Positions 13,758 through 46,666 of a stretch of 64,000 nt of DNA are shown here, piece after piece. Every line of letters starts with the position of its first letter. Positions within the stretch are counted from its first letter, which is position 1. The position numbers were made by a program, and so were the translations under genes. Source of the DNA: Bacillota bacterium (lineage in GTDB: Bacteria > Bacillota > Clostridia > Peptostreptococcales > Anaerovoracaceae); NCBI GenBank assembly GCA_022793795.1, contig JAAWDM010000046.1:1-64000 (forward strand), in the 5' to 3' direction. The notes under the pieces are model-generated. The model was not told the DNA's origin. It made no database searches and was given only the letters and a program-made list of their open reading frames with translations.

Positions 13758-13796
13758 ATAAAATCCAGGCCAAAATGTGACCTGGATTTTATCATA
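13758..13796. terminator. bidirectional terminator
   Basis: ATAAAATCCAGG (13758-13769) pairs perfectly with CCTGGATTTTAT (13781-13792). A and T flanks allow termination from both sides, serving the racemase and the converging PepSY gene. Confidence 0.85.
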
Positions 13797-13873
13797 GTTA
13801 TGAAAGTAGAGAGGTTTTAGTCATCCCAGTGATGATGATGGTTCTTGTTGCAATGGTCATCGCAATCATCGTC

Positions 13874-14872
13874 CTAGTCGTCATCCCAGTCGTCGTCGTC
13901 CATCTGATCACATTCCCAGTCGAGAATGTCGCCGGTGGTGGCGTCGATGTTGTACTCGTATTCCATGCCGTTTGCGATGAATTCGATTTCATATTCATAG
14001 ACGCCGTCGTCTCTGTCCAGCTTCGCCTTGGTGAAAGTAGCTGCAGAGCTGCTAACGCCAGCGTTTTTCAATGCAATGGATTTCGCCTTATCCACACCGA
14101 TATAGTTGGAGGAAGGCTGGTTGCTACCAGAGTTGGAGCCAGTGCTTCCGGAATTCTGGGAGCCAGAGGAGGTGGAACCAGTGCTTCCGGAATTCTGGGA
14201 GCCAGAGGAGGTGGAACCAGAAGGCTTCTGGGTCGTACCGGTTGTATTGCCCTGATTTGTGGTAATATTTTTTACTTCTTTGCTAAACTTGATGACTTCG
14301 CCAGTTGCAACATGAATTTCATAGTCATATTCTGTAATCTTGCTGGAAGTCTTTTTGAAAAATTCCAGTTCATAGATGGCCATACCATCATCAAAGTCTT
14401 TTTTTGTTTTGGAGAACTCCACATCGCCGGCCTTTACTTCTGCATGAGCCAAAGCGATGGACTTGGCTTTTTCCAGCCCAATGTCGCCGTTTTCCGGTAG
14501 ATCCAGCAGCTTGCCGTCAGGCGTTTTGATTTCCGATTCCAAAATGGAGCCGTCGGCAGCTTTGACAGTATACTCATATTCATAGTTTCCGGCAGTGAAC
14601 TCTATTTCATATACGTCGACGCCGTCTTCCTTGTCAAAATTGCTTCGCAGGTCTGTCACCTGATTCTGCTGATAGCCGGCATCCGCCAAGGCTACAGCCA
14701 CACTTTTTTCCAGACCGATACCCCGATTGTTGGTATTGCCAGAGGCGCCTACTCCCATAGTGGAAAGCGCAATGGCAGCGATGATGGCGATCACTGCGAT
14801 CACAGAGACCACTCCGATTATCAGTTTCTTTTGAGAAATCATAATCACTTTATCATTGTTATTGTTGTCCAT
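13874..14872 (-). CDS. membrane-anchored triple PepSY protein with acidic tail; possible extension past an amber codon
   Basis: The 332-residue protein has one transmembrane helix (about 17-39) and three PepSY-like domains (about 50-120, 130-200, 255-320) outside the cell. A Ser/Gly linker at about 215-255 is encoded by two perfect 39-bp repeats (14141-14179 and 14180-14218). It ends in MDDDDWDDD and a TAG stop. After the TAG the same frame continues for 18 codons (13820-13873), reading DDDCDDHCNKNHHHHWDD, to TAA at 13817. The tail is chemically continuous with the end of the protein, so the TAG may be a recent nonsense change or a readthrough site. GGGGA precedes the ATG. PepSY domains often inhibit proteases; the target is unknown. 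Confidence 0.8.
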   Translation of the reverse strand: MDNNNNDKVIMISQKKLIIGVVSVIAVIAIIAAIALSTMGVGASGNTNNRGIGLEKSVAVALADAGYQQNQVTDLRSNFDKEDGVDVYEIEFTAGNYEYEYTVKAADGSILESEIKTPDGKLLDLPENGDIGLEKAKSIALAHAEVKAGDVEFSKTKKDFDDGMAIYELEFFKKTSSKITEYDYEIHVATGEVIKFSKEVKNITTNQGNTTGTTQKPSGSTSSGSQNSGSTGSTSSGSQNSGSTGSNSGSNQPSSNYIGVDKAKSIALKNAGVSSSAATFTKAKLDRDDGVYEYEIEFIANGMEYEYNIDATTGDILDWECDQMDDDDWDDD

Positions 14873-15050
14873 ATAAGAATCCCCTTTCTTATTGTTTCAG
14901 ATTGCATACCTTGGCGACCGAATATGTTAAAGTGTCGTTCACCGAAGTTATGGTCTTATTGTACCCTGTCAATATTAAAAGAAGATTAAAAGAAAAAAGA
15001 TTTTAAAATTTTTTTCTTTTATGTAAGGAAGCGTTCCTTGAATCATGACC

Positions 15051-15079
15051 TTGAAAAGCCTGAGACGTCATGGTATAAT
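15051..15079 (+). promoter_or_regulatory. sigma-A promoter with shared TCATGAC/GTCATGG element
   Basis: TTGAAA at 15051-15056 and TATAAT at 15074-15079 lie 17 bp apart. The flanks, GAATCATGACC before -35 and GTCATGG just before -10, match the repeated promoters at 46723-46751 and 46831-46859 on the other strand. It sets the transcription start inside the longest possible reading frame and so moves the methyltransferase start downstream. Confidence 0.8.
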
Positions 15080-16098: not shown

Positions 16099-16713
16099 TT
16101 ATTGGCCGGCAAGGGCATTATCGACCACAAATTGAATATTTTCAACCTGGGCTGCCATTTGCTGATAGGCATCTGCCTGCTCCGGATCGTCCAAATTCCA
16201 TTGCACATCGCTGGCATGACATAGCACATAGGTGTTATCCTTCGTAGAGAACAGGTAACTGTATGGAACGAAATCCAATCCATTCTCCACAAATTGGTCT
16301 GGGGTCATGGCCCCCTCATAGCAGACGATATAAAAGAGGACACCGCCACCAAAGGGCTCACCCTCCTCACCGATGGATTCCCTTGTTTGAGTATGATAGA
16401 AGATATAATTTTGGCCATCTTTTTCTATAGAATACTGGTCTTTCCAGCTATCAGGCAAAATCAAAGTCAAATCGATCTCCTCTAAAGTTACGGTTTCCTG
16501 TTCCACAGGGACTTCTACCACCGTTTCGTGGGAGAAAGCAAAGGCGCCTGCCGTAAAGCTGCAGGTCATAAGCACAAAGGTTGCCGCCGCTGCAATCAAA
16601 CGCCGAATCCCCTTTCGGCGATGTTCCTGTTTGTAATTGGGAACTTTTGCGGCCTTCTCCACGAGTCTGTCGTCTATATTTCCGATATGGTCGGAAAGCT
16701 GTCTTTTATTCAT
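16099..16713 (-). CDS. putative anti-sigma factor, single-pass membrane protein
   Basis: The 204-residue protein has a charged cytoplasmic N-terminus (about 1-35), one transmembrane helix (about 38-60) and an extracytoplasmic domain with no family I recognise. Its ATG overlaps the stop of an ECF sigma factor gene by four bases (ATGA), the usual layout of a sigma/anti-sigma pair. The sensing function is inferred from position and topology only. Confidence 0.65.
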   Translation of the reverse strand: MNKRQLSDHIGNIDDRLVEKAAKVPNYKQEHRRKGIRRLIAAAATFVLMTCSFTAGAFAFSHETVVEVPVEQETVTLEEIDLTLILPDSWKDQYSIEKDGQNYIFYHTQTRESIGEEGEPFGGGVLFYIVCYEGAMTPDQFVENGLDFVPYSYLFSTKDNTYVLCHASDVQWNLDDPEQADAYQQMAAQVENIQFVVDNALAGQ

Positions 16714-17267
16714 ATTTCAATACCCTCTTTTTCTAAATATTTTCTCAATTTACAACGCATTTCATATAGCATGGATTTTACTTTGCTCTGGCTAAATCCC
16801 GTATGTCGGCAGATGGTTTGGATGGAATCAAAATACCAGTATCGCCGAATAAAAATATTTCGTTTTTCCTCCTCCTGCTGCTGGAGAAACTGACTGATGG
16901 CATGTTCTATATGCTTTTTTTCCATTTCAGATTCCACGGTGTCTGTCCCCGATATACAGTCGCCTAATTCTTCCAAAGATGTGACAGCAGACGGATTCCG
17001 CTTGGCAGCGGAAATATAGTCATATTTTTTTAGAGCCAGATTTCTTGTAATCCTGCTTAGGAATACGGAAAACCTGTTTGGATGCTGACTTGGGATGGAG
17101 TTCCAAAGGGCCAGATAGGTATCGTTAATACACTCTTCACAATCCTCATGATTGGAAAGAATGTTGTTTGCGATATGGTTGCAGAGTTTGCCGTATTTTG
17201 AAGCTGTCTCTGCAATGGCCTGTTCGTCCCGCTCCCAGTAAAGACTTACGATTTTTTCATCATCCAC
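16710..17267 (-). CDS. ECF-type RNA polymerase sigma factor
   Basis: The protein has about 185 residues with a sigma region 2 segment (EECINDTYLALWNSIP, FLSRITRNLALKKYD) and a region 4 helix-turn-helix (SIQTICRHTGFSQSKVKSML). I chose the GTG at 17267 because GGAGGTGG lies six bases upstream; a longer frame to 17309 lacks a site. It is translationally coupled to the putative anti-sigma factor downstream. Confidence 0.85.
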   Translation of the reverse strand: MDDEKIVSLYWERDEQAIAETASKYGKLCNHIANNILSNHEDCEECINDTYLALWNSIPSQHPNRFSVFLSRITRNLALKKYDYISAAKRNPSAVTSLEELGDCISGTDTVESEMEKKHIEHAISQFLQQQEEEKRNIFIRRYWYFDSIQTICRHTGFSQSKVKSMLYEMRCKLRKYLEKEGIEI

Positions 17268-17326
17268 ATATATCCACCTCCATGTGATGTTCTGGAAAGC
17301 TGCTTTCACTATATTAAGTACGGTTT

Positions 17327-17668
17327 TTTTTGTATTGGTTGTAACGGCAGCAGAAAATTCGATATTTTTGTTGAACTTTAAAAAATTATCGAAGCCGATT
17401 TTGGATGCTGCATATTATTACTTTAAAATAAATAGTTATACTGTATTTTCTGGCCTTATTTGGTTGATAAAGTAAAAGCCGGCTTTCTCTCGCCGGCTTT
17501 GAGATTGGATTCTAATGAGAGGGCTTCTTTATAAAGGGGAAAATTCCCCTTATCCTCCCAGAAATTCGATAAAAAATTATATATAAAATTTTTTATCGAA
17601 TTTCTTCACCAGTTCTTCACATAAGACGATAAAAGGCCATGAATATAATGTGCATATTTTGAAATCCC
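17327..17668. repeat. dispersed ~345-bp repeat element, copy 2, with strong palindromes
   Basis: This gene-free stretch is the second copy of the element at 1934-2280. It holds a hairpin AAAAGCCGGC/GCCGGCTTT (17474-17500), the palindrome AAGGGGAAAATTCCCCTT (17534-17551) and a 19-bp inverted repeat with arms at 17560-17578 and 17587-17605 around an eight-base loop. The last two may end transcription of the histidine kinase gene. A small reading frame at 17284-17475 has no ribosome site and looks chance. Confidence 0.6.
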
Positions 17669-19171
17669 TTATCGTAAAGGCAAAGTAACTGTAAATATAG
17701 AGCCCTGGCCCGGCGCGCTGTCCACGGCCGCGGAGCCGCCGTGGACAGCGGCGATGGCCTTCACCATGGACAGTCCAAGGCCAGCGCCAGCTGCCTCGCC
17801 GCCCTGACTGTTGCTGGCGGCGGAGGCAGTGCGCGCCGGGTCGGCCTGATAGAAACGATTCCATATATAAGGTAGATGTTCTGAGGCAATGCCGATACCG
17901 TCGTCACTGACTGTAAGACAGACCGCAGAATCATAAGTTGGCAGATTTGAACTATCGGTAACTGGAAAAGAAGACTGGTTAGCCGGTTGGCAGGCTAGGG
18001 TGACAGTAATGTGGCCGTCGGATTTGCCGTATTGATAAGCGTTGCTGATTAAGTTGGTCAGAAGCCTGATGAAGAGAGCCTGATCCACAGAACTGATGAT
18101 ATCCGGCTCTATGTCTGTAGCCAGTTGGATATTAGCGTTATTTTCTTCAACACTGTGAAGAGCAATCTGTTCCTCACAGATTTTTGCAGTTAGCTGACTA
18201 ATATTGACTTTCGACAGGTGAAGAGATTCATGACCTTGTTCCATGCGGGCGAAAAATAGGAGTTGGGAGACCAGTTCTTTCATTTTAAACCCTTGCTCTT
18301 CAATGACCTGAAGAGCCTCCTGATAGTCCTCTTTTGTTTCTGCCAGTTCCAGAGAGTATTCGCACTGGGCCAGGATGACGGAAATTGGAGTGCGGAGCTC
18401 ATGGGAAGCGTCGGCAGTAAACTGCTTTTCTCGTTGAAAAGCCTCTTCTAATCGATCCAGCATGTTGTTAAAAGTATGAGCCAGTTGATGAACCTCGTCA
18501 TCATGACCATGATCCGCAGCAAGAATAATGCGCTGGGATAGATCATCTCCGCCGTTGATGTTTTCTGCCGTGGAAATCAGAGTATCCATTGGAGCAAGAG
18601 AACGGCGGGTCAGCAAATAACCGCCTGCCACAGATAAGATTGCCAGGGCGGGAAGCAGCAGACAGACCAGGCCCATAGTGGTATATAGGAGGGAAGCGCC
18701 TTCCCTTTGGGAAGCCACGCCGCGAAGCCATAGACCCTCTAAGCCGTCTCCATGAAGAGGGCGTTCATAGATATAGTAGGAAATATTTTTATACTTAAAA
18801 GAGGTTGCCTTGAGAAAGGTGAAGGATTGACTGGCACGTAGGCGAACTGGACACTCGCCATAGAGAAGATTGTTGTTTTCGTCAATCAGAGCGGTATAGA
18901 TACCGTTTATGTAATTGCAAAAATCATCGTCGATTTCCAAAAAACCGTCTTCATAGACAAGGTATTGATCGCCCATTTCGATTTCTCGGCCTTCCAGGGA
19001 ATTATAAAACTCAATTTCCTGTGCATTGGCATCCACTTGTTTTGTTAACTGGGCCTGTATGTCAGTATTGAAAACCGACTGACCGATGGTAAAGGTGAGG
19101 GACACCATGATGACCTCGATGACCAAAAGAGAGATAGAAAACCATAGCGCGATTTTTTTCTTAATGGTCAT
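17669..19171 (-). CDS. two-component sensor histidine kinase
   Basis: The 500-residue kinase has two transmembrane segments (about 8-30 and 165-188) around an extracytoplasmic sensor, a HAMP linker (about 190-245), a HisKA domain with the phospho-acceptor in FTADASHELRTP (about 250) and a HATPase_c domain with LISNAYQYGK (N box), VSDDGIGI (G1) and GAGLGLSMVKAI (G2). It overlaps the response regulator by four bases, so the two are coupled. The signal is unknown; upstream thioredoxin hints at envelope or redox stress. Confidence 0.9.
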   Translation of the reverse strand: MTIKKKIALWFSISLLVIEVIMVSLTFTIGQSVFNTDIQAQLTKQVDANAQEIEFYNSLEGREIEMGDQYLVYEDGFLEIDDDFCNYINGIYTALIDENNNLLYGECPVRLRASQSFTFLKATSFKYKNISYYIYERPLHGDGLEGLWLRGVASQREGASLLYTTMGLVCLLLPALAILSVAGGYLLTRRSLAPMDTLISTAENINGGDDLSQRIILAADHGHDDEVHQLAHTFNNMLDRLEEAFQREKQFTADASHELRTPISVILAQCEYSLELAETKEDYQEALQVIEEQGFKMKELVSQLLFFARMEQGHESLHLSKVNISQLTAKICEEQIALHSVEENNANIQLATDIEPDIISSVDQALFIRLLTNLISNAYQYGKSDGHITVTLACQPANQSSFPVTDSSNLPTYDSAVCLTVSDDGIGIASEHLPYIWNRFYQADPARTASAASNSQGGEAAGAGLGLSMVKAIAAVHGGSAAVDSAPGQGSIFTVTLPLR

Positions 19172-19851
19172 ATGTTTAAGTCCTCCTCCCGCAGTACATA
19201 GCCCACACCGCGAACGGTATGTATCAGCTTTTTATCAAATGGTTCGTCCACCTTTTTTCGGAGATAACGAATATAGACGTCCACCGCGTTGGTGCCGCCT
19301 TCATAGTCGAAATTCCACAGATTGTTTTCAATTTTTTCCCGAGAAAGGACAACCCCTTGGTTACGCATCAGATATTCCAAAAGGGAAAATTCCTTGGCTG
19401 ACAGTGAAATGGGCACGCCGCCCCGGCTGACCTTCCGACTGGCTGTATCCAGCTGAAGGTCAGAAAGCTGATAAACCGCGCTGGCCGTTTGGGTATTTTT
19501 TCGAGTCAGGACACGGATACGGGCCATCAGCTCTGCAAAGGAAAAGGGCTTGACCAGATAGTCGCTGGCGCCTAAATCCAGACCTGTGACCTTGTCCTCT
19601 ACTGCGTCTCTGGCAGTTAGGAAGAGGACAGGGGTTAGATCTCCATGACCGCGCATATGGCGAAGGAGCGCAAGGCCATCCATGCGCGGCATCATGATAT
19701 CCAGAATGACTCCGTCAAAGGAGGCCGCAGCTAGATAGTCTTTTGCTTCTTCACCATCAAAGCAACTGTCCACCGAATAGCCTTCCGCTATTAGTTTTTT
19801 GGAAATCAGCTTATTTAAATTTTTTTCATCTTCCGCTACCAGCAGACGCAT
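19168..19851 (-). CDS. OmpR-family response regulator
   Basis: The 227-residue regulator has a receiver domain with the phospho-acceptor in VILDIMMPRMDG (Asp51) and the conserved Lys in YLVKPFSF, then a winged-helix DNA-binding domain (about 130-222) ending in RGVGYVLR. It lies between thioredoxin and its cognate kinase in one leftward operon. Confidence 0.92.
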   Translation of the reverse strand: MRLLVAEDEKNLNKLISKKLIAEGYSVDSCFDGEEAKDYLAAASFDGVILDIMMPRMDGLALLRHMRGHGDLTPVLFLTARDAVEDKVTGLDLGASDYLVKPFSFAELMARIRVLTRKNTQTASAVYQLSDLQLDTASRKVSRGGVPISLSAKEFSLLEYLMRNQGVVLSREKIENNLWNFDYEGGTNAVDVYIRYLRKKVDEPFDKKLIHTVRGVGYVLREEDLNI

Positions 19852-45382: not shown

Positions 45383-46666
45383 CTATTTAATCTTTCTTCC
45401 TTCTAAATAGTATCGTTTTTCTCGGCTATGTCCCATGGAGAAGGTCTTTCGCGGCAGAGCGCCGTCCGCAATGACGCCGCGGAAAAGTTGACCTTTTTCC
45501 ATGGCAGGAAGGAGAAATCCTATGGCGTTTTCTTGTTTAGACAGGTGGATTAGCGCCTCATCGTCATGGATATAATCGATTTCTCCCACATGGGCAGGCA
45601 GCCACTGATCCAGCCAGCTTTGCAAAATTCCGATGGCCAGTTCCCCTTTATTTTTGTCTAGATAAATGGTTCCCTGGCTGTCCTGGGTATACCATTTTAC
45701 TGGGAATCCCAATGTTTCTGCAGCTATGCCATCCTTGGTCACACCGCCTTTTTCTTCGATAGCAGCGTGGGCTTTTAATTCATTGAGCAAAACATCCACA
45801 TCGCATCCGGTGATAATTCGGTGAATCGGTTCGAAGACCTGGGCCTCATCATGAATATTGTTCAGCTCTACTAGAGCATAGCGGGCTGGATGATTGGATA
45901 GGTCGACGCCAGGATTTGCAGCCTTTAGCTCTTCATAGCAGGTTTTGGCCGTAGCCAAGGAGTGGTTGCCATCGCCAGCAGCAAGAATCATAGGCGTACC
46001 GGAAAGTTCGACATACTTTTCAGGCACTGAAGCCGAATATTTTGCAAAGGCAGTGTCAAATCTATGGCAGGCCTCCTCATTGACCAGCCATCCAGTGATA
46101 TGGCCGCCGCCCTCCATCATATCAAAGTCATAGAGTTCTTCGAAGCTATCTTTTTCAGCGGAAACCGGTTCTATAAGAACCTTATCGCAGTCATCGCAAA
46201 GCATGATGACATGTGGGAATTCCAACAGGGCATCCCGACGAACCCGAACCCGAGGAGGGATTCGCTCTAGCACGGTTTTTTCTGTGGCACGAATCGGGGA
46301 GGTGGAGCCTACATGAAAATCATAGGCTTCCAAATCTACCATACCGATGAGCCCCTTCCGTTTGGCGCCGTTTTCTAAGGTGCGCTCTATATAAATGTAA
46401 GCATTTTTTAGTTGGCGAAACAGATTCTCTTCTAAATACTGCTTCATGGTCTCATTGATATGAAGGGTTTTCACCTGTTCCTCGTCGGTTCCCAGCTGAG
46501 CTTCTGGGAGAATCAGATTGTAAGTAGAAGGACTATCCGCTGTAAAGTCCTCCACTCGCTTCCAGTAAGCGGGGTCAGAAGTAAACTGGTCACAGGCGAT
46601 AACCGCCCATTTTTCCATATGTTTTACCTGTGGAAGCAGGATATCAGCAGGTTTAAAAATGTTCAT
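45383..46666 (-). CDS. DUF1015 family protein
   Basis: The 427-residue protein belongs to the DUF1015 family (start FKPADILLPQ, internal GDGNHSLATAKTCYEEL and VELNNIHDEAQVFEPIHR). Biochemical function is not established to my knowledge. AAAGGAGAT precedes the start. It is transcribed leftward from two tandem sigma-A promoters within 108-bp repeats and is followed without a gap by an ArsR-type gene. Confidence 0.8.
   Translation of the reverse strand: MNIFKPADILLPQVKHMEKWAVIACDQFTSDPAYWKRVEDFTADSPSTYNLILPEAQLGTDEEQVKTLHINETMKQYLEENLFRQLKNAYIYIERTLENGAKRKGLIGMVDLEAYDFHVGSTSPIRATEKTVLERIPPRVRVRRDALLEFPHVIMLCDDCDKVLIEPVSAEKDSFEELYDFDMMEGGGHITGWLVNEEACHRFDTAFAKYSASVPEKYVELSGTPMILAAGDGNHSLATAKTCYEELKAANPGVDLSNHPARYALVELNNIHDEAQVFEPIHRIITGCDVDVLLNELKAHAAIEEKGGVTKDGIAAETLGFPVKWYTQDSQGTIYLDKNKGELAIGILQSWLDQWLPAHVGEIDYIHDDEALIHLSKQENAIGFLLPAMEKGQLFRGVIADGALPRKTFSMGHSREKRYYLEGRKIK

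Follow-up and report, generated by a model that had tools for sequence, protein, structure and literature searches.

An in-frame TAG in the acidic tail of a PepSY-domain protein gene from an Anaerovoracaceae bacterium looks like an ordinary nonsense mutation rather than stop-codon recoding

The PepSY gene and its in-frame TAG

The window analysed here is the whole 64,000-nucleotide stretch of contig JAAWDM010000046.1 (assembly GCA_022793795.1) from a Bacillota bacterium of the Anaerovoracaceae. On its minus strand lies a gene for a PepSY-domain protein, whose reading frame stays open for 18 codons past an amber codon. The features at and around the gene are as follows.

13760–13790, minus strand: inverted repeat AAAATCCAGG...CCTGGATTTT, a possible terminator beyond the putative former stop (by eye)
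13817–13819, minus strand: TAA, the putative former stop of the PepSY gene (translation, comparison with L003)
13820–13873, minus strand: 18 codons past the TAG, DDDCDDHCNKNHHHHWDD, a putative remnant of a D/H/W tail (translation, congener tails)
13874–13876, minus strand: in-frame TAG, with TGG (Trp) at the same site in the nearest congener (translation, comparison with L003)
13874–14872, minus strand: PepSY-domain protein gene, 332 codons, ATG to TAG (translation and Pfam)
13916–14101, minus strand: best-scoring PepSY domain, residues 258–319 (Pfam match)
16099–17309, minus strand: sigma-factor-like gene (Sigma70_r2, Pfam) and an overlapping next gene without a Pfam match
17669–19171, minus strand: histidine kinase gene (HAMP, HisKA, HATPase_c; Pfam)
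19168–19851, minus strand: response regulator gene (Response_reg, Trans_reg_C; Pfam)

In the Pfam profile search, PF03413 (PepSY) matched three stretches of the 332-residue product (E = 2.6e-24), and the score of 85.7 bits against a gathering cut-off of 24 placed the protein in this family. By eye, a membrane-spanning segment was recognized near the N-terminus (residues about 14–38), and a Gly/Ser/Thr linker between the PepSY domains and the acidic C-terminal tail. Purifying selection acts on the protein body: in the last PepSY domain (61 codons), pN was 0.125 and pS 0.795 against the nearest congener homologue (L003 of genome G004, 62% identity), and over roughly the same domain 0.154 and 0.733 against L004 (G003). 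A more distant PepSY protein with 29% identity (L002) is encoded in the same genome, and two paralogues within the genus (L009 and L010) both end with SIWD.

Translation of 13817–14872 on the minus strand returned exactly the frame, the TAG at 13874–13876, the 18-codon tail and the TAA that a preliminary description of this DNA had read there. The product up to the TAG ends with MDDDDWDDD, then come DDDCDDHCNKNHHHHWDD and the TAA. Between the stop and the next stop, the Asp plus His fraction reached 0.67 in the window, ranking at the top of 86 non-redundant ORF ends, i.e. the window's own and those of related loci, a set that includes a few non-PepSY ORFs caught by the motif or rows with masked X residues. 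The next highest fractions were 0.33 and 0.20, over 3 and 5 codons only, and the maximum among the other post-stop stretches of at least 10 codons was 0.19; no D/H-rich stretch past the stop was found in any other of the 86 ends, the window's own included in that count. A chance continuation past the TAG was therefore rejected, and the uniqueness of the stretch argues for a putative former coding tail, which is not by itself proof of present translation. As for the inverted repeat at 13760–13790, it was not listed by the terminator scanner, which allowed loops of 3–8 only.

Tails of the related PepSY proteins

A PepSY homologue was matched in all five genomes of the genus sample, the own genome included, and in 51 of the 197 genomes of the family sample at E 1e-10 or better (genus included); 38 loci were taken from named genomes, and the relatives' loci examined were L002–L010, L027–L051 and L072–L129. 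The gene of the nearest congener, L003, ends ...MEDDDWDDD-TGG-DDDWDDHDEDDDHDDHDED-TAA and that of the window ...MDDDDWDDD-TAG-DDDCDDHCNKNHHHHWDD-TAA, i.e. the Trp codon TGG stands opposite the window's TAG and is followed by WDDDWDDHDEDDDHDDHDED-TAA; the same end as in L003 is also present in JAQXSU010000078.1. The tail of L004 reads DDDWDDHDEDHDDDHDDEWDD-TAA, and L005 (G002) and L006 (G001) end with DDWDDDDRYDD-TAA, so all three, of the same genus, continue past the common DDW core with differing end points. Given the sense codon and D/H/W/E tail of L003 and the read-on in the congeners, the ancestor most likely had a coding tail, with a changeable length that has probably altered often.

The preliminary description had offered either stop-codon readthrough, amber recoding included, or a very recent nonsense mutation, and had proposed a search of relatives for a sense codon at the site. 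The TGG of the closest orthologue, followed by a full D/H/W tail, is such a codon and supports the nonsense-mutation option; the refuting case named there, orthologues that stop at this TAG and have no tail, was not found among the relatives examined. The TAG is not conserved at this position, the homologues of the examined relatives having a sense codon there or ending elsewhere.

In 75 non-redundant ORF ends (window excluded; no masked residue and a tail of 70 or fewer residues, a few being non-PepSY ORFs caught by the motif), tail lengths ranged from 6 to 58 residues with a median of 10. By the same motif the window's tail up to the TAG has 16 residues, and 55 of the 75 ends have 16 or fewer. 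From these 75 ends, 16 rich tails were selected by rule (first 8 residues after the domain motif skipped, at least 17 residues long, at least 60% D/E/H/W/Y); among them, a Trp at the spacing of the window's TAG (WDDDW) occurs only in L003 and L096, in a tail alignment that is ambiguous because of the repetitive sequence.

One stop inside the matched stretch was found in five relatives, being TAG in G185, TAA in G187 and G052, and TGA in G116 and G122, and none of the five has a D/H tail past it (D+H 0 to 0.18). In G185, the PepSY gene of L110 (G185:C2:115000-117300) ends RDD-TAG and then DW, and its relatives L125–L127 end EDWD, EDWD and EDWD; this is possibly a similar event on a much smaller scale, an end shift at a TAG. 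In L042 (G044), a related PepSY protein has a final uninterrupted run of 24 Asp and then TAG.

Composition and drift of the stretch past the TAG

Residues outside D/E/H/W/Y numbered 5 of 18 past the TAG (two Cys, two Asn and one Lys) versus 32 of 310 in the 16 rich tails (Fisher p 0.04), and Cys numbered 2 of 18 versus 0 of 310 (p 0.003); these p values are only indicative, because the rows are related sequences. The same applies to nine hand-chosen tails (p 0.0075), which the rule-based set of 16 superseded. Asn and Lys together account for 11 of the 310 residues. Cys is present in 4 of the 75 ends, all outside the 16 rich tails and one of them a non-PepSY ORF, and one also stands upstream of the TAG in the tail of the window's gene, within the residues that the composition rule skips. 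The shift is modest evidence that the tail may have been released from constraint.

GAY and CAY codons cannot reach a stop by one substitution, and a stop would be created by 5 of the 162 possible single substitutions in the 54-base remnant; since such codons seldom mutate to stops, an open frame here says little in favour of translation. A neutral simulation from the L003 tail, run with substitutions only and without insertions or deletions, left the frame open in 76% of the runs at 0.2 substitutions per site and in 59% at 0.5, and at 0.5 only 2.5% of the open runs kept five or fewer residues outside D/E/H/W/Y. Synonymous sites between the window and L003 are saturated (pS 0.81), which, together with the low simulated survival of the composition, suggests that the stop, if the stretch is drifting, would be younger than the split from L003. 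A remnant two-thirds Asp plus His, in frame despite saturated sites, implies either that the stop is recent or that the tail is still selected.

TAG usage, tRNAs and the pyrrolysine machinery

TAG ends 13 of the 48 window ORFs of 120 codons or more, the PepSY gene included, and although some of the 48 may be spurious, a general reassignment of TAG was rejected on this count. Of 27 tRNA matches in the assembly, 25 were read by ARAGORN, the other two lying at contig ends, and a CUA anticodon was found in none of the 25 readable tRNAs. The readable set lacks the Trp, Tyr, Asn, Gln and Ile tRNAs, so that a suppressor tRNA could sit in an assembly gap.

The C-terminal part of PylS (PylSc) was over the cut-off in none of the five genus genomes, the own included (best 29.8 bits versus 178), and weak matches occurred also in 13 of 14 control genomes and were taken for ordinary synthetases. 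The N-terminal part (PylSn) was absent in all five genus genomes, and the best PylD match in the own genome stayed below the cut-off, at 20.5 bits versus 150. As positive controls, Methanosarcina acetivorans matched in the PylSc, PylSn and PylD searches, and the PylSc model scored 275–301 bits in all four relatives picked as PylSn-positive. An anticodon-arm pattern of tRNA-Pyl, used without a positive control, matched in 0 of 5 genus genomes. The own assembly (G000) is about 95% complete in 58 contigs.

Origin of the TAG

The locus is best explained by a nonsense mutation, in the simplest case TGG to TAG, that hit a tail of naturally variable length, with a probability of about 0.8 in our estimate, i.e. 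the TAG looks like the outcome of ordinary mutation rather than of stop-codon recoding. The protein would be a membrane-anchored extracytoplasmic PepSY protein bearing an acidic D/H/W tail of species-dependent length, in which one codon, most simply that of a Trp (TGG), would have turned into TAG in this lineage. Translation would then stop at the TAG and leave MDDDDWDDD, and the 18 codons up to the old TAA would be an untranslated remnant, still readable because the event would be recent on the genus scale and because Asp and His codons seldom mutate to stops. The product thus probably ends at the TAG, and the shortening appears to be tolerated.

An error of sequencing or consensus, or one allele of a mixed population, the true gene having a full-length tail, is an unlikely source of the TAG. 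Such an origin would fit a TAG that is one base from the congener's codon, and also the nature of the data, the G000 assembly being split into 58 contigs and the named congeners being metagenome-assembled; against it, the rest of the frame looks normal, and the shifted composition past the TAG is a weak hint of a tail released from constraint some time ago.

Less likely still is that a near-cognate or suppressor tRNA reads through the TAG, whether as a programmed event or a tolerated one, and so produces short- and long-tailed forms. The 18 open codons, with a tail of the family's character, and the incomplete tRNA set (25 of 27 read) would accommodate it, but with such codons the frame would be expected to stay open in any case, no readable tRNA has the CUA anticodon, TAG is an ordinary stop in the window, and the remnant's composition differs, weakly, from that of the 16 rich tails. 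Moreover, a D/H tail follows the stop in no other of the ORF ends compared, and the related tail L085 ends on a TAG that is followed by unrelated codons. Across the 86 ORF ends, with one genome of the species, no conservation of the stop together with the downstream frame was found. The readthrough option of the preliminary description is thus disfavoured, and functional readthrough is quite unlikely. The specific version in which a leaky, selected TAG yields a minority His/Cys-rich long form, the proportion of a putative metal-binding tail being set by readthrough efficiency without pyrrolysine machinery, would be very improbable; real readthrough would make this gene of a gut-type bacterium an unusual example of tail-length control.

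Pyrrolysine at the TAG, the least supported of the earlier options, was rejected and has a negligible probability: such machinery exists nearby, 20 of the 148 family genomes sampled carrying PylSn, but PylSc, PylSn and PylD searches were negative as given above with working positive controls, the tRNA-Pyl pattern, itself without a control, matched in no genus genome, and the assembly is largely complete. Trimethylamine methyltransferase is, in the accessible part of the source (PMC7593587), a pyrrolysine gene with an in-frame TAG, and the window's gene resembles it, as far as that part describes it, in having an in-frame TAG followed by coding-like sequence; it differs in that no Pyl genes were found, the TAG is not conserved, and the product is not a methylamine methyltransferase. 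More generally, recoding can be mimicked by an acidic tail of low complexity, since past a nonsense mutation its frame is apt to remain open and to look coding.

Gene neighbourhood and possible function

Three genes, i.e. the sigma-factor-like gene, a further gene and a methyltransferase gene, separate the PepSY gene from the kinase in the window. By eye, the gene overlapping the sigma-factor-like gene is perhaps an anti-sigma factor. This pair at 16099–17309 stands between the two-component system and the PepSY gene, which is not so in L005, L027 and L028, where the PepSY gene is immediately preceded by a histidine kinase gene on the same strand, with gaps of 64–96 bases (gaps from ORF coordinates; kinase domains by Pfam for L005 and by eye for L027 and L028). 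In L003 the kinase gene ends about 930 bases upstream, and in L004 a different gene takes the upstream position. On the other side, a CoA-transferase-like gene was seen in four of five loci (L003, L004, L005 and L027), called by Pfam for L003 only and by eye for the other three.

UipA is reportedly a metal-binding PepSY protein. The window protein is like UipA and lanpepsy, as far as the accessible account of the latter goes, in its PepSY domains and many acidic residues, and differs in that its tail lies outside the PepSY domains. Lanpepsy is a PepSY protein reported, in the accessible part of a review (PMC11845868), to bind lanthanides. The accessible part of another report (PMC12714742) describes DbfQ of Vibrio cholerae, a PepSY protein encoded beside the two-component system DbfRS and reported to regulate it. 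To judge from that part, the likeness lies in an extracytoplasmic PepSY protein whose gene has a response regulator and a histidine kinase gene in the vicinity, the kinase gene adjoining in L005, L027 and L028; DbfQ is a small secreted protein of one domain, whereas the window protein combines an acidic tail and (by eye) an N-terminal membrane anchor with three PepSY stretches, and its gene is separated from the kinase gene by three others, making the DbfQ-like closeness to a two-component system borderline. Judged from the neighbouring genes and the published PepSY proteins, the protein may modulate the neighbouring kinase or buffer metal outside the membrane, the tail being possibly accessory.

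Repeats elsewhere in the window and genome

A partly palindromic interspersed repeat with the core TTGAATCATGACCTTGRAA, and TATAAT further on, was observed at these places in the window.

15023–15079, plus strand: copy of the interspersed repeat, core TTGAATCATGACCTTGRAA
46702–46796, minus strand: copy of the interspersed repeat, core TTGAATCATGACCTTGRAA
46810–46904, minus strand: copy of the interspersed repeat, core TTGAATCATGACCTTGRAA

With up to 2 mismatches allowed, the repeat had 23 matches in the own genome, among them four pairs spaced 108–110 bases, and 0 in the four congeners; no Rfam match was obtained in the window. It is perhaps a MITE-like element, of which 10 copies were aligned. 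At the start of the methyltransferase gene (15045) the repeat contains a promoter-like pair, TTGAAA-17-TATAAT, and two copies lie upstream of a DUF1015 gene (45383–46666).

Separately, the DNA past the stops of the ORF at 2328–2894 and of the kinase gene at 17669–19171 (2217–2327 and 17609–17668, both minus strand) matches ungapped at 37 of 45 bases, and an inverted pair of 42 bases with 74% identity was observed at 2147–2188 and 17586–17627; this is perhaps one short repeat.
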